DNA of 64,000 nucleotides from a virus. Where the stretch lies: positions 1-64,000 of IMG/VR virus record IMGVR_UViG_3300020185_003648. One strand, 5' to 3'. Shown piece by piece: positions 10,517 to 47,129 of this stretch. The position numbers were made by a program, and so were the translations under genes. The notes under the pieces were generated by a model. That model was given only the letters and a program-made list of their open reading frames with translations, was not told the DNA's origin and searched no databases. Position 1 is the first letter of the stretch. Each line of letters starts with the position of its first letter.

Positions 10517-11119
10517 TTAATGTTTTTCACATTCTATTTTATAATGTTCGAACCCTTCATGTTCAGGAACTATATTTGGAAAGAAGAAACATAACGCTCC
10601 ATCTTTATACACTAAGTGTTTTTTAAATGCTGTTGGTATAGCAGCACCTGCTTCTACTCTAAAGGGTACAGGTTCAAATATAATTTCAATTTCAACATCA
10701 ATTTTTCCTTTTTCAACCCATAATAATCTCTCAAATGTCTCTAATGATTTCCATTCACCACGATTGAGTGATTTATGTTGTAATGCTGAATTTAGGTAGG
10801 AGAATGTTTTATATAGTTTATCTCTTGATTCTACAAAGTCAGCAGCGGGTGCCATATGTCCTTTATCCCACTCATTGTATTTGTAGTCATCGTTATCTGA
10901 AGTGTGGATTGAATCGTTTTTATAGAAATTCATTCCCTTACGTGACGCTGTCCCGTTTGGGTTTGTAATACTATATTTTACATTTAAGGGTTGTTCTAAG
11001 AATTCAGAATATACTACAGTGAATACATCATTTCCAGTTGTAACTTTGTTTCGCAAAGTCTGGGAATGGCCACCTATAAAGGTAGCCATAGCCAATATTG
11101 TCAATAAAAACTTATTCAT
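10517..11119 (-). CDS. Secreted DNA/RNA non-specific endonuclease (NUC1 family)
   Basis: A 200-residue protein with an N-terminal signal peptide (hydrophobic residues 4-16, ending GGHSQ). The family motif appears as DKGHMAPAADF near residue 85, a variant of DRGHxxP with the catalytic His. An Asn-containing helix (FSYLNSALQHKSLNRGEW) follows at the metal-binding position. Such enzymes cut DNA and RNA outside the cytoplasm. In a phage it could degrade host DNA in the periplasm or extracellular DNA during release; that role is inference. Confidence 0.85.
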   Translation of the reverse strand: MNKFLLTILAMATFIGGHSQTLRNKVTTGNDVFTVVYSEFLEQPLNVKYSITNPNGTASRKGMNFYKNDSIHTSDNDDYKYNEWDKGHMAPAADFVESRDKLYKTFSYLNSALQHKSLNRGEWKSLETFERLLWVEKGKIDVEIEIIFEPVPFRVEAGAAIPTAFKKHLVYKDGALCFFFPNIVPEHEGFEHYKIECEKH

Positions 11120-12192: not shown

Positions 12193-12774
12193 TTATATAT
12201 CTAAATCGTAATTAGCAAATACTTTCATATAAGTTGTTAAACGGGTTCCATTACCATCTTTAGCTTGTGTACCACGTCTAAACCATTTACTAACTGCACC
12301 TGCACCTACTAAATGTGCTGCTGCTAATGTACCTGATTTGGTTACAAATACACCATGTACTACTTTACCATCATATTTTTTTAGATAGCGTCTTAGTGAC
12401 TTGTAATTTTCAGTTAACAATCTATCCATAGCTTCTTCTTGTAAATGAGGACTATTTAAGAACGTTTTACGTGATACATTTATACCTAGTGATTTAAGTG
12501 TTGACTTACCAAATTGGTATCTACCCATGTAACCAAAGCGATTAACGATATCATATCGATTACTACTCTCATAATGCCCAATCGCATCTAAAAATGCTGT
12601 ATGGTTTTTAATCACAGGTAGTTCGCTTTTAATTTCAATTTTAACTGATATTGGTTGTAGTGGGATTTGTTTTACTACAATGGGTTCTTGTTTTGGTAAT
12701 GTAAGGGCTGTATAGGCACTTATTACTAATGATACCAATAATAATGATAGAACAATTTTGGTTGATTTTCTCAT
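12193..12774 (-). CDS. Membrane-anchored lysozyme/transglycosylase-like muralytic enzyme
   Basis: A 193-residue protein with an N-terminal signal anchor (residues 7-25) and a lysozyme-like fold. The catalytic Glu candidate is in DAIGHYESSNRYD near residue 70, followed by YMGRYQFGKSTLKSLG and AAAHLVGAGAVSKWF, the helix pattern of SLT/peptidoglycan-degrading phage proteins. It probably cleaves peptidoglycan in the periplasm. It is separate from the amidase lysis cassette, so it may act at entry or in virion release. Confidence 0.75.
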   Translation of the reverse strand: MRKSTKIVLSLLLVSLVISAYTALTLPKQEPIVVKQIPLQPISVKIEIKSELPVIKNHTAFLDAIGHYESSNRYDIVNRFGYMGRYQFGKSTLKSLGINVSRKTFLNSPHLQEEAMDRLLTENYKSLRRYLKKYDGKVVHGVFVTKSGTLAAAHLVGAGAVSKWFRRGTQAKDGNGTRLTTYMKVFANYDLDI

Positions 12775-15178: not shown

Positions 15179-15209
15179 TAAATATACGAATGGCTTCCCG
15201 GGTAGCCAA
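15179..15209 (-). promoter_or_regulatory. Composite terminator/promoter element F
   Basis: TTG at 15209-15207, a 20-nt spacer, TATATTTA at 15186-15179 within CGTATATTTAC. It has the same CCCGGG-centred hairpin as element E (15192-15207). It follows the long envelope operon and would end it, while driving the 55-residue gene 30 bases downstream. Confidence 0.7.
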
Positions 15210-15226: not shown

Positions 15227-16909
15227 TTAGAAAGAGAAACGAGAACCTATTGTATAATTTACTAGTACAGGAAAATTAGGTAATGTTGATGTAACAGCGT
15301 TTATACCTAAATTCATTCCAAATCGTTTAGTTAAATTAAATGTTCCACTTAGTCCACCTATAAACATTACATCTGTACTCCATGTTGTACGACGTGAGAA
15401 TGTCTCTAATGATACAAAGGGAGATGATATTGCTACCATAGGTGATACTGATACTCTACCTAATGGAATTGGTTTTGTATAGAATCCAGTTACTGATTGG
15501 GATAATATGTTTTCATCATAGTATATTAATCCGTTAACTACATTTAAGTCAAGTGCAGTTATTGATGTTCCTAAAGCGAATCCAGCTGCTGAACCTTTTT
15601 TACCTAAAAATACTACACTATGGTTCATCATTCCCATTACTGTAGTAAACATTTTAGCACCTCCTATTGATGCTGAGTATACCCTTGATGGTCTACCTTC
15701 TTTATTGATATGGATTTTAGTAAAACTAGCATTCACCATAAACTGTTGAAGGTTACTCCAGACCATTGTATTTAAACCATATGTCTTATCCCCCATCAGA
15801 GAAGAACGTGATACACCAAATGTAGAAGCATAGCTATAAGAACCATCCGGTCCTTGCATCATAGCTACGTTAGCTGTTATAATTGGAGGGGCTAATTGTC
15901 TAGCTTCTTTCTTCTTTTTCTTTTCCTCTTCCTTTTTCTTTTGTTCTTCTTCCTCTTTTTCCTTTTCCTTTTCCTCATCAGATTTCTCCTCCTTCTTCTC
16001 CTCTTCCTTTTCTTCCGTTTTTTCTTCTTCCTTAGATTCCTCTTCTTTAGTTTCCTCCTTTTGCTCTTCTTCTTTGGTTTCTTCTTTAGATTCTTCCTTA
16101 GTTTCCTCTTTAGTTTCTTCCGTCTTTTCTTCCTTTACTTCTTCAGTTTTTTCTTCAGATTTAGTTTCTTCTGTTTTAGTCTCTTCAGTTTTTGTCTCTT
16201 CTGTTGATGAACCTCCATCATTCGATTCACTACTTGAATTTCCCCCTTCAGTGCTTCCACCGCCATCTCCAGATGAATTCCCTTCAGTTGAGCCTGAAGA
16301 GCTAGTATCTGAACTTGAAGAAGTATCGCCTGAAGATGAACTACTAGACGATTGGTTGTTTGTTGTTGATGTATCATTTGAACTAGTATTAGTTGTACCT
16401 GTAGTACCAGTTGTTGAAGTATCACCTCCAGTTGTTCCTGTGGTACCGGTAGTAGTAGAACCAGTTGTTCCTGTAGTTGCAGTAGTTCCTGTTGTAGCTG
16501 TTTGTGTGGGTGCTGTAGTTGCTATAGGTGGAGGTGATGCAGGTACAGGTGGGGGGGCAGAGGCTGCTGCAGCAGCCGCAGCCGCAGCGGCAGCATCAGT
16601 TGCTTGTTGGGTTGTCTGTTGTGTTTGGGCTTGTGTTGTTGTAGCGTTTGTAGTTGCTGTTGAACATGGGTTTAATGACGCCCACCATAAGTATGTTTCT
16701 TCAAGCCATGCTTGCAATTCGCCATTTTGAAATTGCTGTGAGGTAAACGTTCTAGCCTTATTATAAAATACAACAGTTGCCTGTCCATTCATAGGAACAG
16801 TAAATACACTCACTGCTCCAGTACACCTATCTACATAGGTTTGTATAAGATTTTGAGAATATAAATTACTAAAACCTACTAAAAATAATATTAGTAGAAG
16901 TTTTTTCAT
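15227..16909 (-). CDS. Predicted secreted outer-membrane protein with low-complexity passenger
   Basis: A 560-residue protein with a clear signal peptide (ending NLYSQ). A short N-terminal domain has two Cys (DRCTG and NPCSTA). Then come an A/P/T-rich stretch, a long Thr/Gly and Ser/Gly repeat, and an E/K-rich segment (about residues 235-340). The last ~220 residues alternate in beta-strand fashion and end in SRFSF, a C-terminal Phe like the insertion signal of outer-membrane barrels. It probably exposes the repeat through the outer membrane. It is coupled by TAATG to the CsgG-like gene, suggesting the two work together. Homology outside the barrel is not expected. Confidence 0.65.
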   Translation of the reverse strand: MKKLLLILFLVGFSNLYSQNLIQTYVDRCTGAVSVFTVPMNGQATVVFYNKARTFTSQQFQNGELQAWLEETYLWWASLNPCSTATTNATTTQAQTQQTTQQATDAAAAAAAAAAASAPPPVPASPPPIATTAPTQTATTGTTATTGTTGSTTTGTTGTTGGDTSTTGTTGTTNTSSNDTSTTNNQSSSSSSSGDTSSSSDTSSSGSTEGNSSGDGGGSTEGGNSSSESNDGGSSTEETKTEETKTEETKSEEKTEEVKEEKTEETKEETKEESKEETKEEEQKEETKEEESKEEEKTEEKEEEKKEEKSDEEKEKEKEEEEQKKKEEEKKKKKEARQLAPPIITANVAMMQGPDGSYSYASTFGVSRSSLMGDKTYGLNTMVWSNLQQFMVNASFTKIHINKEGRPSRVYSASIGGAKMFTTVMGMMNHSVVFLGKKGSAAGFALGTSITALDLNVVNGLIYYDENILSQSVTGFYTKPIPLGRVSVSPMVAISSPFVSLETFSRRTTWSTDVMFIGGLSGTFNLTKRFGMNLGINAVTSTLPNFPVLVNYTIGSRFSF

Positions 16910-17619
16910 TAGTGGTCAAATATTTTCTTTTGACGCATACGCTTTACAATCTTGTATACGGCTGTATTTAATGCTTTTTTAGTAGCTGTTCCTATTGATG
17001 ATTGGTTGAATGCTACTTCTTCTAAGTTTTCATCGTTTAATAAAGTAACTTCTCTAGTTGTAGTTGATTTTCCTAATCCAGATCCTGTCATATACAATCC
17101 TGATTGTGCGTCTACTAATCTAACTTGTAGACCTAATCTAGTTACTAGTTTATTGGTTACTCCATCTTTTAGGTTTACTGTTTCATCTTCTGAGATAGAA
17201 AAATCATATACTTCTATGTACCCAAAGTATTTAGCTCCTACAATATTACCTTTTAACTCATACTTTTCAGTTAATAATCCCTTAGCTGATGCTTTATATT
17301 GAGTAACCATTCTGTTTTTGATTTCATCTTTAGTTTCAACGAATTCAAAGCGGAATGTCTCTTCCATAAATGCAACTGTAATATTAGATAAACCTAATCC
17401 TACTCTATAGTCACCTAATTCAGGGTATTGTTCTAATACTTCAGGGCTTACACCTATTGATAATATAGCTACAGGTACGGGTTCGCCCATATATTCAGGT
17501 ATAGTATATACTGAAGCTGCTGTTTCAAATCCAGCAGTATAATCTTCTGTTATAGTTTTACCTAATGTTTGTCCAAAGCAGAAATTCAGTCCTAATAAAA
17601 ACGTTATTAAATATTTCAT
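16909..17619 (-). CDS. CsgG-like outer-membrane secretion protein
   Basis: A 236-residue protein with a signal peptide (to about residue 17, CFGQ). The conserved part resembles CsgG: VGLGLSNITVAFMEET, the membrane-spanning-like region AKYFGYIEVYDFS, VRLVDAQSGLYMTGSG and the C-terminal helix GTATKKALNTAVYKIVKRM. CsgG forms the nonameric outer-membrane channel for curli. No lipobox Cys is obvious at the cleavage site, unlike bacterial CsgG. CsgG homologues are known in T4-like marine phages, but their role is unclear. Confidence 0.75.
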   Translation of the reverse strand: MKYLITFLLGLNFCFGQTLGKTITEDYTAGFETAASVYTIPEYMGEPVPVAILSIGVSPEVLEQYPELGDYRVGLGLSNITVAFMEETFRFEFVETKDEIKNRMVTQYKASAKGLLTEKYELKGNIVGAKYFGYIEVYDFSISEDETVNLKDGVTNKLVTRLGLQVRLVDAQSGLYMTGSGLGKSTTTREVTLLNDENLEEVAFNQSSIGTATKKALNTAVYKIVKRMRQKKIFDH

Positions 17620-17813
17620 TATCCTAATGTATCAAATATCCCAAATGTGGCATTGCTAAATTGGGATGGATTGGTTATTAATTCAAATATTACTTTACCA
17701 AAGCCGGTAAGTGCTATGATTCCTAAAGCAGTAACCCATATATTGATAGCATAATCAAGTAGTGTATCTGCTTCTTTCCAGAAATTTATATAAGATTGTA
17801 ACATATTTTTCAT
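17619..17813 (-). CDS. Small membrane protein (64 aa)
   Basis: A single hydrophobic segment near residues 24-46 (INIWVTALGIIALTGF), with an amphipathic start. It sits between the CsgG-like gene and the amidase, so it could be a holin-like or antiholin-like protein or an accessory of the secretion genes. The sequence cannot separate these. Confidence 0.6.
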   Translation of the reverse strand: MKNMLQSYINFWKEADTLLDYAINIWVTALGIIALTGFGKVIFELITNPSQFSNATFGIFDTLG

Positions 17814-17815
17814 TT

Positions 17816-18307
17816 TTAAACTGTTAATGCTGTTTTAAATGCTTTCCAATCGAAAGCTGAACCTGGGTCTGTTTTACCCTTGCCTTTACCTCTAATATCA
17901 TCACCTGATACATCTGAATGTCTTACTACTGCGTCAGCTGGTATGTTATATTGTTTCATCCAGTGTTTACAAACGTCTACTGCTGTTTTAAATTGTTCAG
18001 CTGTATACGTTCCAGGTGTTTCTATTGCTTTACTAAATGTCCCAAAATCGTGTTCGCCTGGTACCAATAGTTCAAATCCTAAAAAATGTGAGTTTAGATT
18101 CTCTAAGTCTCCAAACTTAGATTGTCCAGCGTGAAATGCTTTACCGGGTGTTTCTACTTGTTTTTCGTAAGTTCCATCTGGGTGGATGTAACCATGTACT
18201 GAAAGTTTTACGGATTTAATGAAATCGTGGGCTTTCATTGGTCCCTCAGGCATTTTTAAATATTCTGCCATTGAGTGAACTATAATTCCTTTAGGTACTA
18301 TTGCCAT
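17816..18307 (-). CDS. N-acetylmuramoyl-L-alanine amidase (endolysin)
   Basis: A 163-residue Amidase_2/PGRP-like domain. Zinc-ligand candidates are the His in IIVHSMAEY near residue 9 and in VVRHSDVSG near residue 130. FHAGQSKFGDLENLNSHFLGFEL is the family core and RGKGKTDPGSAFDW the C-terminal catalytic region. It cuts the muramic acid-peptide bond. MAIVPKG at 18307 is chosen because it removes an overlap with the upstream holin-like gene; an in-frame Met at 18346 lies inside that gene. No signal peptide, so it needs a holin. Confidence 0.85.
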   Translation of the reverse strand: MAIVPKGIIVHSMAEYLKMPEGPMKAHDFIKSVKLSVHGYIHPDGTYEKQVETPGKAFHAGQSKFGDLENLNSHFLGFELLVPGEHDFGTFSKAIETPGTYTAEQFKTAVDVCKHWMKQYNIPADAVVRHSDVSGDDIRGKGKGKTDPGSAFDWKAFKTALTV

Positions 18308-18311
18308 AATC

Positions 18312-18557
18312 TTATTCTTCTTCGTTATTGTTATCTTTTTTTCCAAACATTTTACCTGCTTCAGCTATACCAAAACAACCTAATGTTATTATTACAAATG
18401 AATTGTAAATAAATTCATTAATTACTAAATCTTGTCCTACGTAGCCAGTTACTAAATCTGCTACTGCAAATAATGTCATTACAACGAATGAAGAAAATCC
18501 AATAACAGATTTTTCGTTGATGTCGTTTTTGTCTTTAAACATATCTTTAAAAGCCAT
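18312..18557 (-). CDS. Holin-like two-helix membrane protein
   Basis: An 81-residue protein with two hydrophobic helices (residues 18-38 and 48-67) and a charged, acidic C-terminus (KKDNNNEEE). Size, topology and position immediately upstream of the amidase fit a holin that releases the endolysin to the periplasm. There is no sequence family match that I can state. Confidence 0.65.
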   Translation of the reverse strand: MAFKDMFKDKNDINEKSVIGFSSFVVMTLFAVADLVTGYVGQDLVINEFIYNSFVIITLGCFGIAEAGKMFGKKDNNNEEE

Positions 18558-18572
18558 AATTGTGTTTTTTAA

Positions 18573-18860
18573 TTACCAATCAAAACCGTCATCTTTTCTT
18601 TTTTCGGTTTCAGTCTTTTTTGGTGGTGGTGGTTTAACATATACTTTCTTCACAACCGTATCCTTTTTCTGTTCTGGGATGTTTATTGTTATATTAGGTG
18701 TAGATGATTGTTCAGTGACTTGTTCTATTTGAACAGGCTCTTCATCTACTAACCCTAATTTCTCTTTTACTACATCTATAAACAAAGTCGAAATAGTAGC
18801 TATTGCTACTCCAACTCCTGCTATAATTTGTTTTTTAAAATCTTCTAAAAATTCTTTCAT
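18573..18860 (-). CDS. Membrane-anchored periplasmic protein, possible inner-membrane spanin
   Basis: A 95-residue protein with one transmembrane segment near residues 12-29. A periplasmic tail follows that turns proline- and lysine-rich (YVKPPPPKKTE). With the coiled-coil lipoprotein encoded 2 bases upstream it resembles an i-spanin/o-spanin pair, which bridge the two membranes and finish lysis in Gram-negative hosts. The assignment rests on topology and gene order only. Confidence 0.5.
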   Translation of the reverse strand: MKEFLEDFKKQIIAGVGVAIATISTLFIDVVKEKLGLVDEEPVQIEQVTEQSSTPNITINIPEQKKDTVVKKVYVKPPPPKKTETEKRKDDGFDW

Positions 18861-18861
18861 C

Positions 18862-19386
18862 TTAATCCTCTAATTGTGATGGAGAACATCCATCTGTATC
18901 TACATTGCTTACCTCGGTAATAGGCGTATCTGGGCATTTATCCAATGCGTTAACTACACCATCATAATCATAATCTGCTCTTGCTACTAAAATATCAACT
19001 CCTGCTCCAAATTCTTCTACTTGAGATAATAAATCTTGCATTTGTTGAGATGTTGCTAATCCTCCTGCAGTTACCGTCATCCCGTTTACAGTTTCAGTTA
19101 TACCCTGTACCTGTATTAACATTGCTTCTAATCTAGCTTGTAACTCTAATACTTGAGCATTAAATTCTTCTACTTGTTTAGAATACTCTTCTACATCTAC
19201 TATCATTTCACCAACCTGAAGATTTAATGTATCTAAATCGGCTATTATTTGTGGTATGTTAAGTTCGTCAAATTGTGTCTGTAGGTCTGATACAGCTGCG
19301 TTAAGGCTTTCAAAGCCACGTTCCATTGATGGGTTAGTGCAGGCTGCTGTAACTAATAACGCTAATCCTAAAATTAATTTTCTCAT
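18862..19386 (-). CDS. Coiled-coil outer-membrane lipoprotein with TSP3-like loop
   Basis: A 174-residue protein with a lipoprotein signal (LLVTAACTN, Cys near residue 16). A long heptad-rich region (about residues 25-125) follows, then a calcium-loop segment DYDYDGVVNALDKCPDTP like thrombospondin type-3 repeats of OmpA-type proteins. It is probably tethered to the outer membrane and extends through the periplasm. It could be an o-spanin partner of the next gene or a structural periplasmic spacer. Confidence 0.65.
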   Translation of the reverse strand: MRKLILGLALLVTAACTNPSMERGFESLNAAVSDLQTQFDELNIPQIIADLDTLNLQVGEMIVDVEEYSKQVEEFNAQVLELQARLEAMLIQVQGITETVNGMTVTAGGLATSQQMQDLLSQVEEFGAGVDILVARADYDYDGVVNALDKCPDTPITEVSNVDTDGCSPSQLED

Positions 19387-19775
19387 AATAAATTTATTGA
19401 TGTAGCTCCTACTTTTTCATCTTCTAAATACAATTCTATCCTGTAGGAACTTTTAGGTAGAGTTGCTGTATAGACTGTAAATAGGTTATCTCCTAATTCA
19501 CCTTTAACTTGTTCTTTAGATACTACTTTACCTAAATTAGTGATTACTTTAATATAGTATTTACCAGTAGTATTTAATTTTACGTTCATATTAACTTCTG
19601 TAGTAGCGAAATTGCTTTCTAATTTTATACCTACTAATTCAGTTATTTTTAGTTTTTCAGGAAATAATCCTTGATATTCATATTCTACTACTTCTATACT
19701 ATCTGCAGTACATTGATTCATTAGTACTAATAGAAGCATAAATAAATTGAATATTCTAAATTTTGTAATCTTCAT
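19383..19775 (-). CDS. Putative lipoprotein with C-terminal beta domain
   Basis: A 130-residue protein with an N-terminal hydrophobic signal ending LMNQC, a lipobox-like Cys at about residue 22. The mature part is beta-rich (MNVKLNTTGKYYIKVITNLGKVV, SSYRIELYLEDEKV) and recalls Ig-like or T9SS type-A-like sorting domains of Bacteroidetes secreted proteins, without a firm match. The ATGA overlap with the next gene suggests co-translation. Confidence 0.6.
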   Translation of the reverse strand: MKITKFRIFNLFMLLLVLMNQCTADSIEVVEYEYQGLFPEKLKITELVGIKLESNFATTEVNMNVKLNTTGKYYIKVITNLGKVVSKEQVKGELGDNLFTVYTATLPKSSYRIELYLEDEKVGATSINLL

Positions 19776-19777
19776 GG

Positions 19778-21511
19778 TTATTGTATGTTTAAGTTTATTT
19801 TATCACCGTTTGCCTTTACAGCATCGGTATTTTCAAAGTAAAATAACCCTGTTACATTGTTTACTGTTCCTATTGGGGTAAATTCAAGTGTAAATGCTTT
19901 TCCTTTTTTAATAGTAGATTTACCATCTGTGGATAATCCTCCAAATAATAATTCACCCTCGAATGGTTTAGAGAAATTAGTCACTGTATTACCTGTATCG
20001 TAAATTACATTTTTAAGTACTAATTTAGAAGTATCGTATTTTATTCTTGCTTGTAACCCTACGATATCTAACCCGTCATGAGTTAACTCAACTTTTACTA
20101 ACCCATCTTCTATTATACTAACTAAGTCTAATGTAGTTGTTCCTACTGCTTTCCTACTTAGGTTTAATCCTGATTTAGCTGCTTTTGCTGCTAGATTAGC
20201 TGGGAATGAAGTACTATGTGATTGATCTAAATCAACATGATGCCAGAAAGCAAAATCAAAAGTTAATAAGTTTTCTGTTGGAGTAAAGTTTCCATTCCAA
20301 TATTGAGGTGCTTCTGTCTGTTCACTTTCTGTTTTTCTTATATCTAATTCTGCTCCTAACTTTTCTATTGTGTAGTTTTCATATAGTACGGTTGCAGTAC
20401 ATCCATGAAACCAAGTACCATCATCATTTTGTTGTGGAAGGCAAAACTCTCCTGCTACATCTAATCCTAAAACATAAGCTAGAAGGCCGTATGTATCTGC
20501 TGAGTTGAATGCTTGGTTGAGATTAGCGTCAGCTGAGAATAAACCGAAGTTATCATAAGTTGTATCAGTACCATTTATTCCTACATCTGTTAGGTACTGG
20601 AATGACCTATAAGCATCGGTTACTGTATGTACGTTTGGAATATATGATGCATCTATTGGTTCTAAATTCCATGCATAATACTCTTGATCTAATGTTACAT
20701 CAGTTAGTATTACATCTGCGTTTGAATCTAATGTAAAAGGACCTAAAGTACTGTTTGTTGTTCCTATTGTTACCCTAAAGTTAGTAGGAACTAATGCTTC
20801 AGGTAAATTAAAATGTAAGGTAGCGTTATAAGTAACAGCTTGTTCTATACCGAACAGGAATTGTCCGTTTGGTTTAGAAGCATAAATTGGAGATGTAATT
20901 TGGTCTCCGTTAGTATCTTCTACGTTTGCAAGAGTAAGTCTAAATTCCTTTTCAGCAGCAGTAGCTGTATCGGGTTTTACTGTAAAGAACATTGTAAAGA
21001 TAGGTGTAACTGTAGAATACGATGCACTATCTAATAGGTCTTGTAAATTTTTATCTGAAAGTTGTATTGCTATTCTAGCTACACTCCATTTCGCATTATA
21101 TTCTGAGTATGTAGCTGTGCCGGTGTTCCATTTATTGTAGCTATCTCTTAAATCACCTTGTAGTAGACTAAAAGAGGTATTAGGAAAATCATAACTTTGT
21201 GTAATAGGTCCAGCATCCTGTAATGCTACTACACCTGGGAATGCACTTGGTACTGGATCTGCGGTTAGTATTTGACTGTTATATTGTACGTCTAAAAATA
21301 GGTATTTGAAATTTACTAACGAATCATAGTCTGCAGTACCTACTGCTGTCATATGTAATTCCATTCGTAGAGTTTTTGCTTCTTCTATAGGATTATTTAC
21401 ATCAACTATGGCATTAGTTTCAGTGTCAAAGAATTTTAATCCAAATTGTACATTTTGACTAAACAAAGTCAAAGGTAAAATTAGCAATAAGAATAATAAT
21501 AATTTTTTCAT
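19778..21511 (-). CDS. Secreted multidomain protein with cohesin-like and dockerin-like segments
   Basis: A 577-residue protein with a signal peptide (ending LTLFSQ). Residues ~20-230 form one or two beta domains of cohesin/Ig type. ADANLNQAFNSADTYGLLAYVLG near residue 330 resembles a single dockerin calcium-binding half-repeat with its F-helix. The C-terminal ~130 residues (KVELTHDGLDIVGLQARI, TSKLVLKNV, FTLEFTPIG) resemble a cohesin domain. No catalytic motif is seen. It is probably a scaffold or adhesin outside the cell. It starts one base after the upstream gene's stop, in the CsgG operon. Confidence 0.65.
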   Translation of the reverse strand: MKKLLLFLLLILPLTLFSQNVQFGLKFFDTETNAIVDVNNPIEEAKTLRMELHMTAVGTADYDSLVNFKYLFLDVQYNSQILTADPVPSAFPGVVALQDAGPITQSYDFPNTSFSLLQGDLRDSYNKWNTGTATYSEYNAKWSVARIAIQLSDKNLQDLLDSASYSTVTPIFTMFFTVKPDTATAAEKEFRLTLANVEDTNGDQITSPIYASKPNGQFLFGIEQAVTYNATLHFNLPEALVPTNFRVTIGTTNSTLGPFTLDSNADVILTDVTLDQEYYAWNLEPIDASYIPNVHTVTDAYRSFQYLTDVGINGTDTTYDNFGLFSADANLNQAFNSADTYGLLAYVLGLDVAGEFCLPQQNDDGTWFHGCTATVLYENYTIEKLGAELDIRKTESEQTEAPQYWNGNFTPTENLLTFDFAFWHHVDLDQSHSTSFPANLAAKAAKSGLNLSRKAVGTTTLDLVSIIEDGLVKVELTHDGLDIVGLQARIKYDTSKLVLKNVIYDTGNTVTNFSKPFEGELLFGGLSTDGKSTIKKGKAFTLEFTPIGTVNNVTGLFYFENTDAVKANGDKINLNIQ

Positions 21512-21988
21512 TTATAGTTTAAGTTTATCAATTAATTCAATACAAACCTTCTTTAAAGCGGTTGAAACATTTGTTTGGGAAAACTGACCACCCTGGTCTA
21601 TTATTAAGGTGGCTGTTGAGATAGACTTTGCTTGTCCTTTAGCTACTACAGGTTTCTTCTTTTTACCTTTAATAGTTAAGTAAGCTCTTGCAATGATTTC
21701 TGTAGCTTCTGTATTTTTAGAATATACAGCAAGTTGGACGTTAGTTTTTTTAACGTCGAAGTATAGAAGTTCTACGTGTAGAACTGTTTCTGATTTGGGG
21801 GATAAGTCGTGTCCTTTATCTTGAATTAATTCTTCAAGTATATTTTGAACACCAAAAGCTAAGTCCCTATTGTTTGCAAAGGGTCCTAGCTTAATATTGT
21901 TTTCTACTTCACCTATTTGAATAACTTGTTGTGCTGTTGTAACAAATGGGAGTAGAAACATTCCCAATATAATTAAGAATTGTTTCAT
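21512..21988 (-). CDS. Secreted protein, possibly CsgG-related
   Basis: A 158-residue protein starting MKQFLIILGMF at 21988. That start is chosen over the in-frame Met at 22021 because it gives a clean signal peptide (ending VTTAQQ) and leaves CATATTTATCC, a promoter-like box, in the leader. The mature part has alternating strands (LHVELLYFDVKKTNVQLAVY) and a terminal helix VSTALKKVCIELIDKLKL, loosely recalling CsgG C-termini. It is first in the envelope operon. Confidence 0.6.
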   Translation of the reverse strand: MKQFLIILGMFLLPFVTTAQQVIQIGEVENNIKLGPFANNRDLAFGVQNILEELIQDKGHDLSPKSETVLHVELLYFDVKKTNVQLAVYSKNTEATEIIARAYLTIKGKKKKPVVAKGQAKSISTATLIIDQGGQFSQTNVSTALKKVCIELIDKLKL

Positions 21989-23794: not shown

Positions 23795-24670
23795 TTACAG
23801 AGTTTCGTATTCGAATTCAATAGGTTCGAATCCCCATGTATCAGCATTTTCGGTTTTTTCTTGAGCAGTAACAGCTCTATACATATCATTTACTTTTCTA
23901 TTAATACCATCTAAAAAACCACCTCCACCTTTACCATGGTAGATATGAAATAATGCTGGTGAGTAGATTGCTTTAAGTTCAAAACCATGTTTAAGTGCCT
24001 TCTTTTGAACGTTTGTATCGCTATATAGAACATAAATAAGCTCTTCCTCGAATCCACGTATTTCGTTCCAAATATTTTTATGTGCTAATTGGAAGTCACC
24101 ACAGCAATTTATAATACTATAGTTATCACCTTCAACTACGGCTTCACCTGTAGTACGTTCTTCACTATTTTCGATTAAATGGTCTCTTAATTCACGCCAT
24201 TCACCATATTTCCTTTCACCACCATGAAACGCTTCAATGTCCTTCCATTCAGTATGTCTACGTGATATAGTATAGAATGTGTTATCGTTTAAGTCGTTTT
24301 TAATCGTTGCTTCCAGCTCATCTCTACGTGGGGCAATTACATCAATGTTTGTTGATACAATATAATCACCTGTGGCACGTCTAATACCAATATTACGACC
24401 TAATACCTCATTACATACCTGAGCATGTGGGTCGTTATTAGTAAGCATAGATGCTATTTCAGGTGTAACCACTATATGTTTTAGGTTACCTTTACCTTGT
24501 ATATTTTTTTCAATATCCCAAAGTAATGGATGGTTGTTAGGGGAATTCCAATCTACTAATATTACTTCATCGAATGTATCGATTAGAGAGTTTAAACAAT
24601 AAGTGGCTCTATCATTTAGATCGCCTCCATAATTATCATTTCTTGCAACAACAATAGCGCTTAATTTCAT
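23795..24670 (-). CDS. Family 2 glycosyltransferase
   Basis: A 291-residue GT-A protein. AIVVARNDN near residue 5 opens the nucleotide-binding fold, EVILVDWNSP is the next strand, NIGIRRATGDYIVSTNIDVI near residue 100 includes the DxD-like position, and FHIYHGKGGGG near residue 245 is a late catalytic-loop His. It probably transfers a sugar in the glycan locus that extends to 41343. It ends the locus on the left and overlaps the next gene by four bases. Confidence 0.8.
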   Translation of the reverse strand: MKLSAIVVARNDNYGGDLNDRATYCLNSLIDTFDEVILVDWNSPNNHPLLWDIEKNIQGKGNLKHIVVTPEIASMLTNNDPHAQVCNEVLGRNIGIRRATGDYIVSTNIDVIAPRRDELEATIKNDLNDNTFYTISRRHTEWKDIEAFHGGERKYGEWRELRDHLIENSEERTTGEAVVEGDNYSIINCCGDFQLAHKNIWNEIRGFEEELIYVLYSDTNVQKKALKHGFELKAIYSPALFHIYHGKGGGGFLDGINRKVNDMYRAVTAQEKTENADTWGFEPIEFEYETL

Positions 24671-25107
24671 TTATATTGTATTATGTTATCGGAACATATT
24701 CCTATATGTCCTTCTAGGTTATAATTTTCAGGTGGCATTACTGCTATACTATTTTCACATTTAATATTTGGGTAAGCCCAAATATATCCTTTTGAAGTTA
24801 ATGTTACATCATCTTCTTGATGCCAAAAATAGTTTAAATAAACACCTGTTTTGTCTAATATATTAAGTTGGCCTATAGCATCCAAATTTTTAGTATGAAT
24901 CCATAATTTATTTGAGTGGTGTTTTAGTAAGTCAAGAGGGAAATCGTATGTTGGTTCATCATGCCCCAATTTAAATTTACCAACTATAAACCAAACATCG
25001 ATTTCAACTTGAAACCCTTGCTTTATAGCTTCAAAGATATAGTTAGGGTGGTTTTCCTTATCAGGTTGTTTACCATTTATATTACCACGATGTGATATTA
25101 AAATCAT
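24667..25107 (-). CDS. Glycerophosphodiester phosphodiesterase-like protein (short)
   Basis: A 146-residue protein with the GDPD start ISHRGN, then ENHPNYIFEAIKQGFQVEIDVW (catalytic E..D positions) and KLGHD, the His of the metal site. Classical GDPDs are about 240-300 residues, so the barrel here is shortened after the first half. It may act on teichoic- or lipid-type phosphodiesters in the host envelope or trim a glycan carrier. Overlaps both neighbours by four bases. Confidence 0.65.
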   Translation of the reverse strand: MILISHRGNINGKQPDKENHPNYIFEAIKQGFQVEIDVWFIVGKFKLGHDEPTYDFPLDLLKHHSNKLWIHTKNLDAIGQLNILDKTGVYLNYFWHQEDDVTLTSKGYIWAYPNIKCENSIAVMPPENYNLEGHIGICSDNIIQYK

Positions 25108-25664
25108 AATAAAGGTATAAAAGTTTTACCTAGTTTTCTATTTTGAGAGGTAAATAAGTCGAAGCCTAAAGTAATTCTTATGCCATTATATGGTTTGGTT
25201 ATTTTAACATAATGGTCCCAGTCTTTATTATTATAATCGTGATTATTTCCAGGTCCTACATAAATTTGACCTATTTTATTATCTATTTCAACCCCATTAT
25301 GAAAGATGGTTTTAGTGTTTTGAGGGGTAATAGATATATAACCGTGGTATAAACCTTCATGATAATGGGATTTCAAATTTTGTTCAACTTTTTCACCAGC
25401 GTCATAATTTAACCAGCTACCAATCCATAAGGGTCTATCATCTCCTATAAAACTTCTTATATGATAATTTAATTCCTTATATAACTTGTAAAATAAAAGG
25501 CTACCTGATGTTAAATTAAATATATTATATTTTTCATATGCCCAAGTACTATTATTAGTATTATAGTCTTGAAGAATAAATTCGTGAGCTTTCTTACACT
25601 GGAATTCGAATAGGGAGTGATTATCCCTTATTAGGTTAGATTGGTATAATTTATATTTCTCCAT
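25104..25664 (-). CDS. Possible 2OG-Fe(II) oxygenase-like double-stranded beta-helix protein
   Basis: A 186-residue protein. SHYHEGLYHGYISI near residue 110 offers an HxH-type metal strand, IYVGPGNNHDY a distal His, and GIRITLGFD an Arg strand at the usual co-substrate position. This is the pattern of phage 2OG oxygenases with weaker conservation, so a cupin or inactive relative is also possible. It is embedded in the glycan locus. Confidence 0.5.
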   Translation of the reverse strand: MEKYKLYQSNLIRDNHSLFEFQCKKAHEFILQDYNTNNSTWAYEKYNIFNLTSGSLLFYKLYKELNYHIRSFIGDDRPLWIGSWLNYDAGEKVEQNLKSHYHEGLYHGYISITPQNTKTIFHNGVEIDNKIGQIYVGPGNNHDYNNKDWDHYVKITKPYNGIRITLGFDLFTSQNRKLGKTFIPLL

Positions 25665-27027
25665 TATAGTTTTTTAAAAAATAATCTAAATCTTCAGGTG
25701 TACCTATCCCCCACATTTTAGGAATGTCAAATGTTTTAATTTTTTTACAATCGGCTATTGCTTCATTAAATACAGGACAAACATAAAATTCATTATTAAC
25801 ACGTATATTTTTTTCTATCATTTGTTCAGCATATTTTACAAAGTCTGAACCGTGTTTCCAATAGTAATATCCTACTGTTGCTATATCGGATATTGGATTC
25901 TTTTCTGCTACTTCGGTTACTAATCCGTTTTCATCTACTTTAGCAAAACTCCATTTTGGATGAGTTGCTTTAAATGATACTATACCTCCATCGGCATCTG
26001 TTTCATTCATTTTATATAAGAATTCGTTTGAATCCCATTCTACAAATTGGTCTGAATTAGCAAAGAATAAAGGGGCATCTGCATCGATATGTTCTTTGGC
26101 CAATAATGCTGTACAAGCAGCACCCTCAGTCATACCGTCTGTTTCTACTATTTTACAGCCGGGGGTGATTAGGTTAAGTAATGTATCTAAATTATATTTT
26201 TCTCTATGTTCTTTTTGAACAACATAGATAAAGTTGGCATCAATATTTAGGTTTTCAACTACAACTTGTATCATTGGTTTACCTTTAACCTCAATTAATG
26301 GTTTTGGAAATGTATAACCCGCTGCTTGGAACCTTGAACCCGCACCTGCCATTGGTATTAAAACATTTAATTTACCACCTTGCCATTTTGGAACTTTTCC
26401 CATTTTCTTTATATTTAATTTTTCTGCTATGTTTTTTATGTTTACATCCTTTGGAGTATCAACTCGTAATACATCCGCTCTTGAACGTGATGCTGCTAAT
26501 AACCCAGCTGGTGAATCTTCTATTATCAATGTTTCTTCAGGTAACACCCCCATTATGGACATTGCTTTCCAATACATTTCAGGATGTGGTTTACCTTGTT
26601 TTACATCTTCGTTTGATATAATTAAATCTAATTCTTCAATTAAATCAAGTTTAGCTAATATTGTCAGCACTGAACGTCTAATAGCATTTGAACAACAAGC
26701 TAATTTATATCCTCTTCGTCTTAGTTCTTTAAAGGTCATTTTAATGAACTGGTCAGGTTTGATATATTGTAGTTGTTGTATAGTAAGTTCTTGTTTACGA
26801 TTCCAGATTTGGGAATGTAATTCTTGAGGTAAACCCCTATCCTTAGTTAACATATCAAGTTTTTCACTTGATTTTAAACCATCAAATGTTTTTAAATGGT
26901 CTTGTCTATTAATTATGTATTTAGAATCTACTTCGTTTAAAGCAGAGTTAAGTGCTTCGTAATGTAAGTCTTTTGTGCTTACTAAAACACCATCTAAATC
27001 AAATATTATTAATTTTTTACCACTCAT
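25651..27027 (-). CDS. HAD phosphatase - sugar nucleotidyltransferase fusion
   Basis: A 458-residue two-domain protein. Residues ~1-205 are a beta-phosphoglucomutase-like HAD domain (IFDLDGVL, then ACCSNA, and IIEDSPAGLLAA). Residues ~215-455 are a nucleotidyltransferase (LIPMAGAGSRF, FPKPLIEVKGKPMIQ, FFANSDQF). The fusion could dephosphorylate or isomerise a sugar phosphate and activate it as an NDP-sugar; the base and sugar are not readable. The start MSGKK at 27027 is preferred over an in-frame Met at 27054 because the upstream gene ends at 27017. Confidence 0.8.
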   Translation of the reverse strand: MSGKKLIIFDLDGVLVSTKDLHYEALNSALNEVDSKYIINRQDHLKTFDGLKSSEKLDMLTKDRGLPQELHSQIWNRKQELTIQQLQYIKPDQFIKMTFKELRRRGYKLACCSNAIRRSVLTILAKLDLIEELDLIISNEDVKQGKPHPEMYWKAMSIMGVLPEETLIIEDSPAGLLAASRSRADVLRVDTPKDVNIKNIAEKLNIKKMGKVPKWQGGKLNVLIPMAGAGSRFQAAGYTFPKPLIEVKGKPMIQVVVENLNIDANFIYVVQKEHREKYNLDTLLNLITPGCKIVETDGMTEGAACTALLAKEHIDADAPLFFANSDQFVEWDSNEFLYKMNETDADGGIVSFKATHPKWSFAKVDENGLVTEVAEKNPISDIATVGYYYWKHGSDFVKYAEQMIEKNIRVNNEFYVCPVFNEAIADCKKIKTFDIPKMWGIGTPEDLDYFLKNYNGEI

Positions 27028-27700
27028 ATACTTTTCTATCTTTATACCAATCAACTAAATTAACATCTTGTTTTAACCAATGTACACCTACTTCTTTGTC
27101 TAAACAAATATCAGTAAAGAAACTTATACCATTATCAACTAAATGTTGGTAATTTAATTTAAATTCCATATTCATATTTGTCATATAATTCCAAGTAATA
27201 AGGGATTCAGGGGGAATAGGTAATAACTCGTCTATTTGAAAGTCAAACATTATTAACATATCTTCTACCTTACCATAAATTACATTGTCTGAAGGATAAT
27301 CGTGTGATGTATGATAGTATTCTAAATCGTAAGCTAAGTCTGTTCTAACACCTGTTTTACAAGTAGCCATAAATGATAATTGTTGATCTTTTAAACCATC
27401 CATTAAGGAGGGTAAATTAGATATAATAGTGTCACTTCTAACCTTTAATACTTCATCTACTTTACCCTCTAAATATTTTATGCCTTCATATGTAGATTTA
27501 ACTTGCATATTAACATTCATATAACCTGGGAATTGAGGTTTATCTACTAAGACAACTTCGATTCCTTTAGAACGAATGTATTCTAAACGAACTATACTTT
27601 CATCACTCCATGTAGACCAAACTACATTTGGATATTGTGAATAATGGTCTGCTACTTCTTTATAATAGTTTGTAGGTCCTTGTATTACGATTCCTTGCAT
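27017..27700 (-). CDS. WavE-like lipopolysaccharide biosynthesis protein
   Basis: A 227-residue protein. GIVIQGPTNYY at the start, VVWSTWSDES near residue 28, and DEVLKVRSDTIISN near residue 83 match the WavE family, whose members act in outer-core LPS synthesis and are probably glycosyltransferases. It is coupled to both neighbours by overlap. The acceptor is unknown. Confidence 0.75.
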   Translation of the reverse strand: MQGIVIQGPTNYYKEVADHYSQYPNVVWSTWSDESIVRLEYIRSKGIEVVLVDKPQFPGYMNVNMQVKSTYEGIKYLEGKVDEVLKVRSDTIISNLPSLMDGLKDQQLSFMATCKTGVRTDLAYDLEYYHTSHDYPSDNVIYGKVEDMLIMFDFQIDELLPIPPESLITWNYMTNMNMEFKLNYQHLVDNGISFFTDICLDKEVGVHWLKQDVNLVDWYKDRKVYEW

Positions 27701-28521
27701 TAGTCTTCTAAATTATAAAGTTTCATTATACCATCTTTTAATGAGGTTGTTGGTTTCCAATATTTCAAGATAAAGGGGTCGGGTTCGTTCATAGCATTCT
27801 TTTGTGTTTCATCTTTTCTATCTGAAGGTATTACTTTACAACTTGCTACTACATCTAAAAAATCTGCTACCTCTCTAATTGTATTCCATTCAAAATTAGA
27901 AATATGATATTCTTCATTCTTGGGTAAAGTATCATATTGTTTAGCTAGAGTATATAAGGCTTCACAAGCATCATCTGCGTATAAAAATTGTCGAGATTCT
28001 GTACCATCAGTTCTCATTTTAATAACACCATCTTCTTTGGCCATTTTAATAAAATCGGTTATAACGTGAGATTTTTCTTCATCATGCTCCTTACCATATA
28101 CATTCCAAAACTTAACTAATAAGCCATCTAAATCTTTAGTTACTTTTTCTCCTAATGCCTTTAACATTCCATAACTTGAATAGGACATTTCAGCCATTTG
28201 AGATGAAGCAAATATAAAAGGTGTGCCCGATTGTTGAATAGCGTCAAATGTGTTTGACATTATTCTCATATTATTCATTATAAATTCACTTGTGTCTTGA
28301 TATTGTTCTAAATACTTAGCTCCACCAACATCAAATGCTAAAAAATATACTATATCAGCTTCTAAAAGATATTCATCTAATACCATATTATTTTGTATAC
28401 GTAAATCCTCCCATTCGTTATTGAGAATATCTATTTCGTATACTTTTTCACCTTGTTTCTTAAGGTAATTTACTAAATGGGAACCAATTTGTCCTGCTGA
28501 GCCTAGTACTAAATGAATCAT
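27700..28521 (-). CDS. SDR-family nucleotide-sugar epimerase/dehydratase
   Basis: A 273-residue Rossmann protein. LVLGSAGQIGSHL is the GxxGxxG NAD site, FASSQMAEMSYSSYGMLKALGE contains the Tyr-x3-Lys catalytic pair (YGMLK), and ADDACEAL follows as in extended SDRs. It uses NAD(P) to alter an NDP-sugar; the precise reaction cannot be assigned. It is one of several SDR genes in the locus. Confidence 0.8.
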   Translation of the reverse strand: MIHLVLGSAGQIGSHLVNYLKKQGEKVYEIDILNNEWEDLRIQNNMVLDEYLLEADIVYFLAFDVGGAKYLEQYQDTSEFIMNNMRIMSNTFDAIQQSGTPFIFASSQMAEMSYSSYGMLKALGEKVTKDLDGLLVKFWNVYGKEHDEEKSHVITDFIKMAKEDGVIKMRTDGTESRQFLYADDACEALYTLAKQYDTLPKNEEYHISNFEWNTIREVADFLDVVASCKVIPSDRKDETQKNAMNEPDPFILKYWKPTTSLKDGIMKLYNLED

Positions 28522-29429
28522 ATTATATTTTTTTCTTTTAATTTCACTAATCCTCTATCAAGATATTCTTTCATTCTAGATTCAAATATTTCTCTTTGAT
28601 TAGGTACTTTTTTTAGTGTAAGTAAATCTTTATAATATTTTGAAAAACCACCCTCTAATAAAGGACCAACTGAGTATTCAAATATGGATTCGCCACGTAG
28701 TACCCATTGTTGGAAATCTACTCCTTGGTCTTTAATGTATTCAGTTATCATTAAAGAGTACCAATCGTGTGGACCATATCCTTTCCAATCATCTTGTATT
28801 GGGCAAAGTTCTTCCATAAACGATTTACTATATAAATCAAACCAACCCGCCCATTTTGATTTTTGGGTTTCGTTTAATTCTATATCTTGTTCACTTACTT
28901 TAGAGTTATATCTAACATCATAAATGTCTACTTGATTCCAAGTATCATAAGTTGCTCCAACATTTTCGTTTGATATTTCGTCCCATGTTCCATCCCATAA
29001 TTTATTTATTTCAGGGGTAATAACAAAATACTTATTAGGTGCTTTTTTAGATGAAGCAATTAAATATGTAAGTAAGTATTCACTAAAGTACATATCAGGA
29101 CAAACATTCATATAAAAATCAACTTCAGGTGAAATTGATTCTCGTTGGAAATCTAAATGTCCATATAATTCGTCTCCGTCGTATATTTTAGGAGTATATT
29201 TGTAATCAACTAATAAATTAGATAACTGATTAAATTTATCTATAAAAAATTGTTTAGGTAATTTACTATTATCCCAATCAATCAAGTACGAAGATAAGTT
29301 TAGACACGCTGATATTTCAATTGTGTCGTCTTCGGTTAAATGGTATTTTGATTTTTTAAATTGGGTAAAGGATAACATTGCGTAATCTATTTCCCAAGGA
29401 AGTAAGTGATAGGTAATTTTATAATTCAT
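28518..29429 (-). CDS. Putative glycosyltransferase-like protein (303 aa)
   Basis: A soluble alpha/beta protein with no clear family signature. YHLLPWEIDYAMLSF opens it and DFYMNVCPDMYFSEYLL in the middle resembles the donor-site region of GT-A enzymes, with the CPD acidic position in place of DxD. Its position between two SDR genes in a sugar locus is the main functional hint. Confidence 0.5.
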   Translation of the reverse strand: MNYKITYHLLPWEIDYAMLSFTQFKKSKYHLTEDDTIEISACLNLSSYLIDWDNSKLPKQFFIDKFNQLSNLLVDYKYTPKIYDGDELYGHLDFQRESISPEVDFYMNVCPDMYFSEYLLTYLIASSKKAPNKYFVITPEINKLWDGTWDEISNENVGATYDTWNQVDIYDVRYNSKVSEQDIELNETQKSKWAGWFDLYSKSFMEELCPIQDDWKGYGPHDWYSLMITEYIKDQGVDFQQWVLRGESIFEYSVGPLLEGGFSKYYKDLLTLKKVPNQREIFESRMKEYLDRGLVKLKEKNII

Positions 29430-30252
29430 TCCACATTTTTTTAATTCCAGCTTCTAAACCTTTTATATTAAACAATACAATATCATCTATTCCTACTCCA
29501 TCACCTATGTAACTTTTACCTTTAGTTGTACTATTAATATTAATACTAACTTGTGATTCAGTAATTTGTTTAATTAAAGTAGCTAATCTTGATAATGTAT
29601 ATTTCTGTGAATATACTAATTCTACCTCGCTATCCAAAGGATATTCAGGATTACTTAAATAATAGTTTATAACACTAGTTAAATCATCTATATGGACAAA
29701 ATCCATTAATTTATCCTCGTGAATTTCAATTGGTAAATTTTGTTTTATTTTAAGTAAACTTGAATTAATAAATCGTGTATCGTCTTCACCAGTCCCAAAT
29801 ACACCATATATTCTAAAATTGTAGCTATGTCTATCTGTTTTCAATAATCGACTGATTATATTTTTAGACATTCCATAGTAATCAATAGGCCAACTTGTAT
29901 TTAAATTATTATTTCTAGGAATAGGATGGATTCCTTTACGTCTATCAAATTCAGCACCCGAAGCAAAGTTAAAAAATTTACCAAATCTATCTCTATTATC
30001 CATTAAGTGGAAATACATAGATAAATTTTGGTACATAGTTTCAGCAGTATCAGGTTGTAAACGACTACCACCTTTAATAGCACAATGTATTATAACATCA
30101 AAATATTTAGTTTGTAGATACGTTTTAACTTGTTGGCTATCCGTTAAATCTAATTCGCTACTACTAGGAGAATATACGTCGTATTTATCTTGTAATGATT
30201 TGATTAAGTTTTTACCTACAAAACCATTACCACCCGTAACTAATATTTTCAT
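29419..30252 (-). CDS. SDR-family NAD-dependent epimerase/dehydratase
   Basis: A 277-residue protein with ILVTGGNGFVGKNL (NAD site), FFNFASGAEFD, and the catalytic YYGMSKN near residue 125. VHIDDL is the later extended-SDR motif. It resembles GDP-fucose-synthase or RmlD-like reductases in size. It lies directly after the E1-beta-like gene with no gap, so both may act on the same keto-sugar. Confidence 0.78.
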   Translation of the reverse strand: MKILVTGGNGFVGKNLIKSLQDKYDVYSPSSSELDLTDSQQVKTYLQTKYFDVIIHCAIKGGSRLQPDTAETMYQNLSMYFHLMDNRDRFGKFFNFASGAEFDRRKGIHPIPRNNNLNTSWPIDYYGMSKNIISRLLKTDRHSYNFRIYGVFGTGEDDTRFINSSLLKIKQNLPIEIHEDKLMDFVHIDDLTSVINYYLSNPEYPLDSEVELVYSQKYTLSRLATLIKQITESQVSININSTTKGKSYIGDGVGIDDIVLFNIKGLEAGIKKMWNEL

Positions 30253-30789
30253 TTATTTTGTTTTACAAAAGTCAGCATATTCAACTAATATAGTGTTAAT
30301 TCCGTCTTCTCTATTTAGTGCCTTTTCATATGCGGGAATGATGTCTTCGGGTTCAATTAGTTCTATAACTTCTATATTAGATGTCATTTGTCTAAACGCT
30401 TCCGAGAAGTTACCCTTATGTTGACATTGTGGGTCTACGGGATGTTCACTTCCAACTGCCACTCTAATAATAACCTTAGGATTTAGTTTGCCATTAGACA
30501 TACTTTTAAACTTATCTAAATGGTTTACAATTTGGTCAACACCCATTAATAAAAAATTCCATCTTGGGAATGTAGATACAGGAATCATCCCTTCAATAGC
30601 CATTCCATTTGCTATACCCGATTGTAAGTATTCCGCTACAGGTAATTCTAACCTTTTTTCAGATGGTAAATGGGATAAAGAATCATATAATCCGGTTCCT
30701 TCATATTCGACCGCTTGTCCAATAAATAAGGTTTTAGGGTGGTTTGCTAATAAACTCATTGCCTCTTTAAGGCTATCAAAGTATTTCAT
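30253..30789 (-). CDS. TPP-dependent E1 beta-like subunit (short)
   Basis: A 178-residue protein matching the N-terminal pyrimidine-binding domain of E1-beta/transketolase proteins. It has FIGQAVEYEGTG, RLELPVAEYLQSGIANGMA (the Glu that activates thiamine lies in this region of the family), STFPRWNFLLMGVDQIVNHL and IIRVAVGSEHPVDPQ. The usual C-terminal transketolase domain (E1-beta ~325 residues) is missing. Paired with the E1-alpha-like gene 9 bases upstream, it probably forms a small TPP enzyme acting on a sugar intermediate. Confidence 0.72.
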   Translation of the reverse strand: MKYFDSLKEAMSLLANHPKTLFIGQAVEYEGTGLYDSLSHLPSEKRLELPVAEYLQSGIANGMAIEGMIPVSTFPRWNFLLMGVDQIVNHLDKFKSMSNGKLNPKVIIRVAVGSEHPVDPQCQHKGNFSEAFRQMTSNIEVIELIEPEDIIPAYEKALNREDGINTILVEYADFCKTK

Positions 30790-30798
30790 ATTTGTATA

Positions 30799-31428
30799 TT
30801 AAAATTGTACCCTTTTACCTGCCCCAGCGTGTGGGTATTTAGTATTATCATATTGGTAATATAATAAGTTTTTCTGTTCTAAAATACCACCCATATAATG
30901 AGAATCCAAATAATATGGAGTTTCTCTACCCCAAATTTCTTGAGTTGGAGTACATACTGATTTTTTATTGTCTTCTACTATGAACGTAATAGGTAAATCA
31001 TGGTTTAAGGAATATTTGTAGGCTTCGTGAAAATGTCCTGTTTCTGAACTCATGTCACCAACCCAACACCATACTCTATTAGATTTACCTTGTTGTTTGA
31101 TTGCTAATGCTATTCCGGTTGCTATTGAAGGTATACCTCCAACAATTGAACTACAAATAAATTTATATTCAGGTAAATTGGCTACCATAGATTTACCTTC
31201 ACGTATGTTAGCTTCCATAACGTCTTCAGGTATACCTTTTAATAACCCTTGATAATGGTTTCTCCAAGTACAACATACCCAATCCTCTTCAATGTTAATT
31301 TTTTTAAATATTTCAATTAACATATCTTCATTTCCACTATATAAATGGATGGGAGCTGCTATTTCACCATTATTAAAGGCATCTCCTATTCGATTTTCAA
31401 ATTCTATTAAGGATTTTTTAGTTACCAT
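30799..31428 (-). CDS. TPP-dependent E1 alpha-like subunit (short)
   Basis: A 209-residue protein. WRNHYQGLLKG recalls the RxHG.. loop, GGIPSIATGIALAIK the central helix, and GDMSSETGHFHEAYKY followed by FIVEDNK is the thiamine-diphosphate motif (GD...N). E1-alpha proteins are usually near 360 residues; this one keeps the cofactor domain but not the flanks. The context (RfbH-type dehydrase, SDRs) suggests C-C bond formation or cleavage on a keto-sugar rather than pyruvate oxidation. Confidence 0.75.
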   Translation of the reverse strand: MVTKKSLIEFENRIGDAFNNGEIAAPIHLYSGNEDMLIEIFKKINIEEDWVCCTWRNHYQGLLKGIPEDVMEANIREGKSMVANLPEYKFICSSIVGGIPSIATGIALAIKQQGKSNRVWCWVGDMSSETGHFHEAYKYSLNHDLPITFIVEDNKKSVCTPTQEIWGRETPYYLDSHYMGGILEQKNLLYYQYDNTKYPHAGAGKRVQF

Positions 31429-36081: not shown

Positions 36082-36085
36082 ATTT

Positions 36086-38152: not shown

Positions 38153-38153
38153 A

Positions 38154-39904: not shown

Positions 39905-39906
39905 AA

Positions 39907-47098: not shown

Positions 47099-47129
47099 TA
47101 AATATACGAACATTCGTTCGATAAACCAA
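47099..47129 (-). promoter_or_regulatory. Composite terminator/promoter element H
   Basis: TTG at 47129-47127, a 20-nt spacer, TATATTTA at 47106-47099 inside CGTATATTTAC. The spacer includes a short hairpin, CGAAC/GTTCG (47107-47120). It follows the Hsp20 gene and drives the chaperonin genes. A TCTAGAGCGAG sequence adjoining it (47131-47141) is repeated inverted upstream of Hsp20. Confidence 0.7.

Follow-up and report, generated by a model that had tools for sequence, protein, structure and literature searches.

We identified a compact gene set that is common to viruses of marine and freshwater Bacteroidota and that seems to be undescribed; a full-text literature search found no paper on it. 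The example studied here lies in the window, a 64-kb stretch of DNA within a virus record of 65,483 bases (Table 1). Its least variable gene, I, encodes a protein with a predicted CsgG fold, and its most variable gene, B, encodes a secreted protein modeled with two cohesin domains. From gene content and predicted folds we infer that the genes encode an exported system spanning the envelope, by which a cohesin/dockerin scaffold is displayed on the infected Bacteroidota cell; we regard the chances of this reading as evenly balanced.

Conservation of the cassette among viral loci

The run of eleven genes reported in the initial annotation consists of 10 ORFs by our count, which we name A to J in transcription order. 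Clear signal peptides can be read at the start of A, B, C, D, I, and J, and a lipobox in C and D, bearing out the earlier claims of at least six secretion signals and two lipoproteins.

Table 1. Cassette genes and the element bordering them in the window
Feature	Position	Strand	Description	Basis
Cassette	15227-21988	-	10 ORFs, A to J in transcription order	ORF list; gaps of -4 to +15 nt
Gene A	21512..21988	-	Signal-peptide periplasmic protein, 158 aa, YajG-like (Lipoprotein_16)	PF03923 in family members
Gene B	19778..21511	-	Secreted scaffold, 577 aa	AlphaFold; cohesin fold matches; Pfam cohesin in relatives
Gene C	19383..19775	-	Lipoprotein whose domain resembles the type IX secretion C-terminal domain (CTD)	Weak Pfam; hhalign
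Gene D	18862..19386	-	Optional lipoprotein, coiled-coil-like middle, TSP3-like end	ORF; weak TSP_3
Gene E	18573..18860	-	Single-pass inner-membrane protein, Pro-rich periplasmic part, C-terminal Trp	Sequence
Gene F	18312..18557	-	Holin-like, two predicted TM segments; mobile neighbor, not core	Varying place beside endolysins
Gene G	17816..18307	-	N-acetylmuramoyl-L-alanine amidase (endolysin); mobile neighbor, not core	PF01510; phrog_1794
Gene H	17619..17813	-	Small membrane protein, optional	ORF; present in 28 loci
Gene I	16909..17619	-	CsgG-fold protein (predicted), type I signal peptide, not lipidated	Foldseek; VIA; hhalign
Gene J	15227..16909	-	Signal peptide, two-Cys N-domain, acidic linker, C-terminal beta-barrel with beta-signal	Alignment; beta-signal
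Hairpin element	15179..15209	-	GC-rich hairpin, then TTG-N20-TATATTTA promoter-like element; probable transcription-unit boundary	Position just after J

Using gene I and short conserved peptide patterns, we retrieved at least 80 viral loci, which together with Flavobacterium phage immuto and the window make 82, many of them fragments and many near-copies. Immuto, which has T4-like capsid genes, is the closest cultured relative with gene I (48% identity). When the ORFs were clustered, I was found in all 82 loci and J in 81, followed by E (78), B (75), A (72), and C (57). The holin-like F is in 40 loci and the amidase G in 15; the optional genes H and D are in 28 and 7. The cassette genes lie on one strand in every locus; C directly follows B in 57 of 57 loci, J lies within 60 nt of I in 74 of 81, and B is missing from no locus that extends far enough to include it. 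Only in the window's clade do F and G sit within the cassette; elsewhere F and G come after J, or other lysis genes are found there. The stable core is A-B-C-E-I-J, and the holin and amidase are neighbors that move. Comparison of gene order in related phages shows that the exported unit proposed in the initial annotation is real and that its holin and amidase are not stable members.

A tblastn search of cultured phages with A and B gave no match, and the immuto homologues were detected by profile only. No bacterial relative of I was found in 84,980 species by a pattern scan that reaches only fairly close relatives, and the phage-only status of this gene is provisional. Over the same 1194 locus pairs, median identity falls from 0.74 for I through 0.51 for A, 0.41 for J, 0.39 for E, and 0.36 for C to 0.29, the lowest value, for B. 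Gene F has a median of 0.69 (437 pairs) and ribonucleotide reductase NrdA, which is less conserved than I, one of 0.61 (483 pairs). With B the most variable gene and I the least, the ranking fits an exposed module mounted on a machine that stays the same.

In some immuto-type phages E and I are separated by an insert (about 6728-7983 in L068-L071; also L078 and L079) that encodes two proteins, a small one of membrane/coil type and an Ala-rich, repetitive one of ~330 residues, with no matches. The window also encodes a phage GroEL (44858-46786, minus strand, PF00118) with an adjoining GroES-like gene, and homologues of both are found in immuto. From about 23800 to 41300 the minus strand carries an extended series of genes of the glycosyltransferase, epimerase, and sugar-nucleotide-like kinds, several of them matching the sugar-gene block of immuto.

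Transcription of the cassette

Co-transcription of the cassette is plausible: a hairpin element follows J, and no copy interrupts the run. Tight spacing continues upstream of A, which makes a transcript longer than the cassette probable. The hairpin-TATATTTA element that follows J recurs at 14724, 13238, 4009, and 3036, with similar copies at 47129 and 62011 (minus strand); none of these six other places in the window is inside the cassette. The element looks like a combined terminator and promoter at transcription-unit borders, and its TTG-N20-TATATTTA part resembles the Bacteroidota promoter (TTG/TAnnTTTG). The Bacteroidota promoter pattern TANNTTTG showed no excess over chance.

Gene I is predicted to have the CsgG fold

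Gene I was originally assigned to CsgG, a call that fails in Pfam and single-sequence searches and succeeds by profile-profile and structure comparison. Pfam CsgG (PF03783) had no match above cut-off in I, in 12 relatives, or in the virus record itself, and the PHROGs gave no match for I; the same kind of scan matched Pfam CsgG in a control phage, HTVC008M. A profile of I found nothing among PDB sequences. Aligned by hhalign to a CsgG profile of 45 sequences drawn from proteobacterial genomes and phages, the I family scored 94.9%; against only three CsgG sequences, a profile too small to inform, the probability was 0.6. The AlphaFold model of I has the order beta-alpha-beta-alpha-beta-beta-beta-alpha at a moderate mean pLDDT of 66, and its best Foldseek matches in the PDB are all CsgG (4uv2, E 6e-7). 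VIA superposed the model on CsgG with Z 12.4 and an rmsd of 4.1 over 157 residues, followed by PelC, LptE, and the flagellar protein FlgT with Z of about 9; TraT, at Z 6.8, was too weak to be retained. The best viral structure match is an annotated phage CsgG. On this model the protein has the CsgG fold and is nearest to CsgG itself.

I lacks the N-terminal lipid anchor of CsgG. None of 83 sequences has a Cys at the cleavage site, and nine lipobox-like strings among them fall within the hydrophobic core. The Tyr-Pro of the constriction loop in CsgG is aligned with Y65-P66 of I, a pair that does not vary among 51 sequences; of the loop residues Tyr51 (mature numbering), Asn55, and Phe56, the Asn and Phe are not conserved in I. 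The model contains one long hairpin (131-149, 153-170), and the region of the second hairpin has pLDDT <50. Nine phage records of this kind contain no CsgE, CsgF, or curlin repeats, whereas CsgF and curlin were detected in the HTVC008M control. Gene I perhaps works like a CsgG- or PelC-type ring, and it does not belong to a curli system.

Gene B resembles a modular cohesin/dockerin scaffold

The AlphaFold model of B (pLDDT 80) places cohesins at residues 18-225 and 454-577 and dockerin-like helices at 288-350, and the two cohesin domains match known cohesin folds with Z of 12.6 and 14.0. In Pfam the cohesin match of B is below cut-off (E 3e-4, 21.4 bits vs 24.1); Pfam cohesin is found in 29 of 46 relatives. 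The cohesin-like character given to B before any database search is firm by fold. D299 and D339 are the only residues that never vary across the 46 relatives, and the two lie in the dockerin-like region; one relative alone shows Pfam Dockerin_1, at E 1.3e-3 and below cut-off.

Extra or alternative copies of B exchange the first cohesin for other domains: a C-type lectin (Lectin_C) in L021 and L022, PA14/GLEYA in L041, and lectin plus ConA-like domains in L061 and L063. The immuto counterpart is split in three, namely a lectin with a dockerin-like module, a dockerin-like protein, and a cohesin with a type IX secretion tail. This architecture appears to follow the logic of a modular cohesin/dockerin scaffold, with cohesin-dockerin binding predicted.

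Gene C and possible routes to the cell surface

Ten of 10 members of the C family match DUF3244 weakly and five of 10 match Por_Secre_tail; the C protein of the window matches the type IX tail weakly. By hhalign, C aligns at 94.5% with the CTD that immuto-clade B proteins carry, against 1.6 for a cohesin control, and on this evidence C is homologous to that type IX secretion tail. Por_Secre_tail is above cut-off in the B of immuto, L061, and L077, and the B of the window is without it. A separate C occurs in 57 loci and a tailed B in 18; no locus has both and none has neither. The two classes coincide with the two main clades on the tree of I. The tree gives three changes between them, a count inflated by two fragmentary loci, L073 and L074, labeled C by default; when these are left out, the classes are the two main clades, so the mutual exclusion may reflect a single fusion or fission.

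Many C proteins have acidic residues right after the lipid Cys. The signal C-X-K-(D/E)2, which moves lipoproteins to the surface in Capnocytophaga (PMC5080379), fits nine of 44 distinct C sequences; that of the window (CTADSIE) does not fit. The other lipoprotein, D, has no surface-export motif in its sequence. Both candidate routes, the type IX tail and the C surface signal, point outward. A cohesin protein with a type IX tail, as in immuto, would not need I as its channel.

Predicted envelope partners A, E, and J

Pfam PF03923 (Lipoprotein_16, YajG-like) is found in eight of 10 members of the A family, with a best E of 3e-6, and an A profile built without I sequences aligns with the I profile at an hhalign probability of 74. 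The A profile made only chance matches to PDB sequences, and we rejected A as a CsgG in its own right (hhalign 2%). The optional gene D has a weak TSP_3 match in Pfam.

E has one membrane segment near the N-terminus and a Pro-rich tail. Its last residue is Trp in 78 of 78 sequences, compared with 117 of all 1854 ORFs in the set, these 78 included. The earlier suggestion that E might be a spanin is not upheld: E stays with I where lysis genes lie elsewhere, and no coiled-coil pattern was found in its sequence. In several relatives, moreover, Rz-like genes distinct from E accompany the endolysin.

J carries a low-complexity acidic linker of ~270 residues in the window and 93-327 across relatives. 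It ends in TIGSRFSF, an outer-membrane beta-signal, and the same kind of motif ends 70 of 78 relatives, in agreement with its initial description as a large outer-membrane-type protein; Pfam gave spurious low-complexity matches only.

Lysis genes beside the cassette

The amidase call for gene G, which starts at ATG 18307, is certain (PF01510, E 2e-17; phrog_1794 amidase, E 2e-17). An endolysin lies within 2.5 kb of the cassette in 57 of 74 loci and belongs to one of four unrelated kinds: amidase (15), GH19 (17), M15 (13), and one further kind (12). The endolysin state changes at least 11 times on the tree of I, which means that the link between cassette and endolysin has persisted through replacements and suggests a shared timing or a shared task. 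The link is missing in immuto-type phages and in some others; immuto and related phages have the cassette without adjacent lysis genes, and the holin and chitinase of immuto lie ~28 kb away. A signal-anchor protein with a weak transglycosylase-like domain is encoded at 12193-12774 (minus strand) of the window and is possibly a second cell-wall hydrolase.

Proposed function and alternatives

In the display system that we propose, I would assemble into a periplasmic ring of the CsgG type that sits at the outer membrane. Three further proteins would join it: the barrel J, the small CsgG/YajG-like A, and E, an inner-membrane tether that would use its conserved terminal Trp to dock on the outer-membrane components. 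B would be the scaffold, its cohesins and dockerin-like module linking copies to each other or carrying lectin-bearing partners, and C, as a surface lipoprotein, would anchor it. The outcome would be a glycan-binding coat on the cell, sticky or shielding, with adhesion or shielding as its likely use. A more specific version is a phage surface organelle in which the CsgG-fold ring, the barrel, and the Trp-ended tether hold a cohesin-dockerin scaffold with phage-swapped lectins, sent outward by host type IX secretion in one clade and by lipoprotein surface export in the other; we put this forward tentatively, as somewhat less probable than its negation. Weighing against display are the moderate model of I, the misfit of the window's C to the surface signal, a dockerin visible to Pfam in one relative and there below cut-off, and the type IX tail on the cohesin protein of immuto, which would leave I without a channel task there; the endolysin linkage also counts against it by suggesting a role near lysis.

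Help with lysis is the main and a serious rival, which we rate as unlikely. E, I, and J would here form a device reaching from the inner to the outer membrane, its task being to disrupt the latter or to time lysis, with B and C helping release or keeping progeny off debris. Such a device would account for the endolysin link that outlasts replacement among four unrelated families (57 of 74 loci) and for the holin and amidase inside the cassette in the window clade, and it has a precedent in the CsgGF of phage Melnitz, proposed as a lysis pore (PMC9004378). It accounts poorly for immuto and its relatives, which keep the cassette without neighboring lysis genes, and for the separate Rz-like genes that several relatives own beside their endolysin, and it leaves unexplained the cohesin/lectin scaffold of every complete cassette. 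Superinfection exclusion, which like lysis was among the roles in the initial annotation and to which we assign a similarly low probability, keeps the architecture of the display system and fixes its use: the displayed scaffold would cover or cross-link the glycan receptors of competing phages. The swapped lectin, PA14, and ConA-like domains on B, the high variability of B and C, and the recurrence in 21 loci of a nearby family of non-specific endonucleases with signal peptides are in keeping with it. No tie to receptors was found, however, and the endolysin neighbors suggest late expression, which would be late for exclusion. In the window this DNA/RNA non-specific endonuclease (PF01223, E 2e-22) is encoded at 10517-11119 (minus strand), and in immuto the family lies immediately upstream of B1.

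Extrusion of a fiber through I by a diverged type VIII (curli-like) system, one of the roles first suggested for this region, is very improbable. It would fit the CsgG fold and the invariant Tyr-Pro of I that aligns with the constriction loop, but the accessory and fiber proteins CsgE, CsgF, and curlin are all missing from the nine phage records, I is not a lipoprotein, and B is a folded multidomain protein rather than an amyloid repeat.

If the display reading is true, aquatic Bacteroidota phages rebuild the host exterior with a modular lectin scaffold before release. This would explain genes that are widespread but unannotated in viral contigs from the environment and would show that phages use the CsgG fold for something other than curli. 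It would also offer a testable case of a phage sending its own proteins through the type IX and lipoprotein export pathways of its host.

Comparison with known systems

CsgG of type VIII secretion is the closest structural relative of I, being its best PDB match and having a constriction-loop Tyr-Pro that aligns with an invariant pair in I. I differs from it in having no lipid anchor, in lying below Pfam detection, and in occurring without CsgE, CsgF, and curlin. The curli operons of pelagimyophages and Melnitz (HTVC008M; PMC7029224, PMC9004378) likewise belong to T4-like aquatic phages and contain a CsgG-fold gene in an exported operon. These operons differ in being of the CsgF-CsgG-curlin-repeat type, with a clear Pfam CsgG and no annotated A, B, C, E, or J, so that of the link first drawn to curli of marine T4-like phages the fold is common and the operon is not. 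For phage CsgG an earlier idea was 'sibling capture' (PMC7029224). Curlin-repeat genes are annotated beside CsgG in HTVC008M (L086) and Melnitz-3 (L087), where the papers call csgA and csgB missing.

The exopolysaccharide exporter PelBC (PMC12141448) and LptDE resemble the cassette in pairing a CsgG-fold partner with a separate outer-membrane beta-barrel, and PelC and LptE rank next after CsgG among the structure matches of I. PelC and LptE are, in contrast, lipoproteins of polysaccharide or LPS export; J is without the TPR part, and these systems have no cohesins. Rz-like spanins are comparable to E as inner-membrane proteins with a periplasmic tail; E differs in following the cassette rather than the lysis genes, in its missing coiled coil, and in its Trp end.

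Cellulosome scaffoldins share with B the cohesin folds and dockerin-like modules, which are on separate proteins in immuto. B differs in being phage-encoded, in carrying lectin or PA14 domains instead of cellulases, and in having its binding predicted. In the Bacteroidota phage Cryophage (PMC7468147), where no CsgG-fold cassette is described, several variable proteins carry type IX secretion tails and one of them has PA14; there, as proposed for the cassette, phage proteins with swappable binding domains are routed outward by host type IX secretion.
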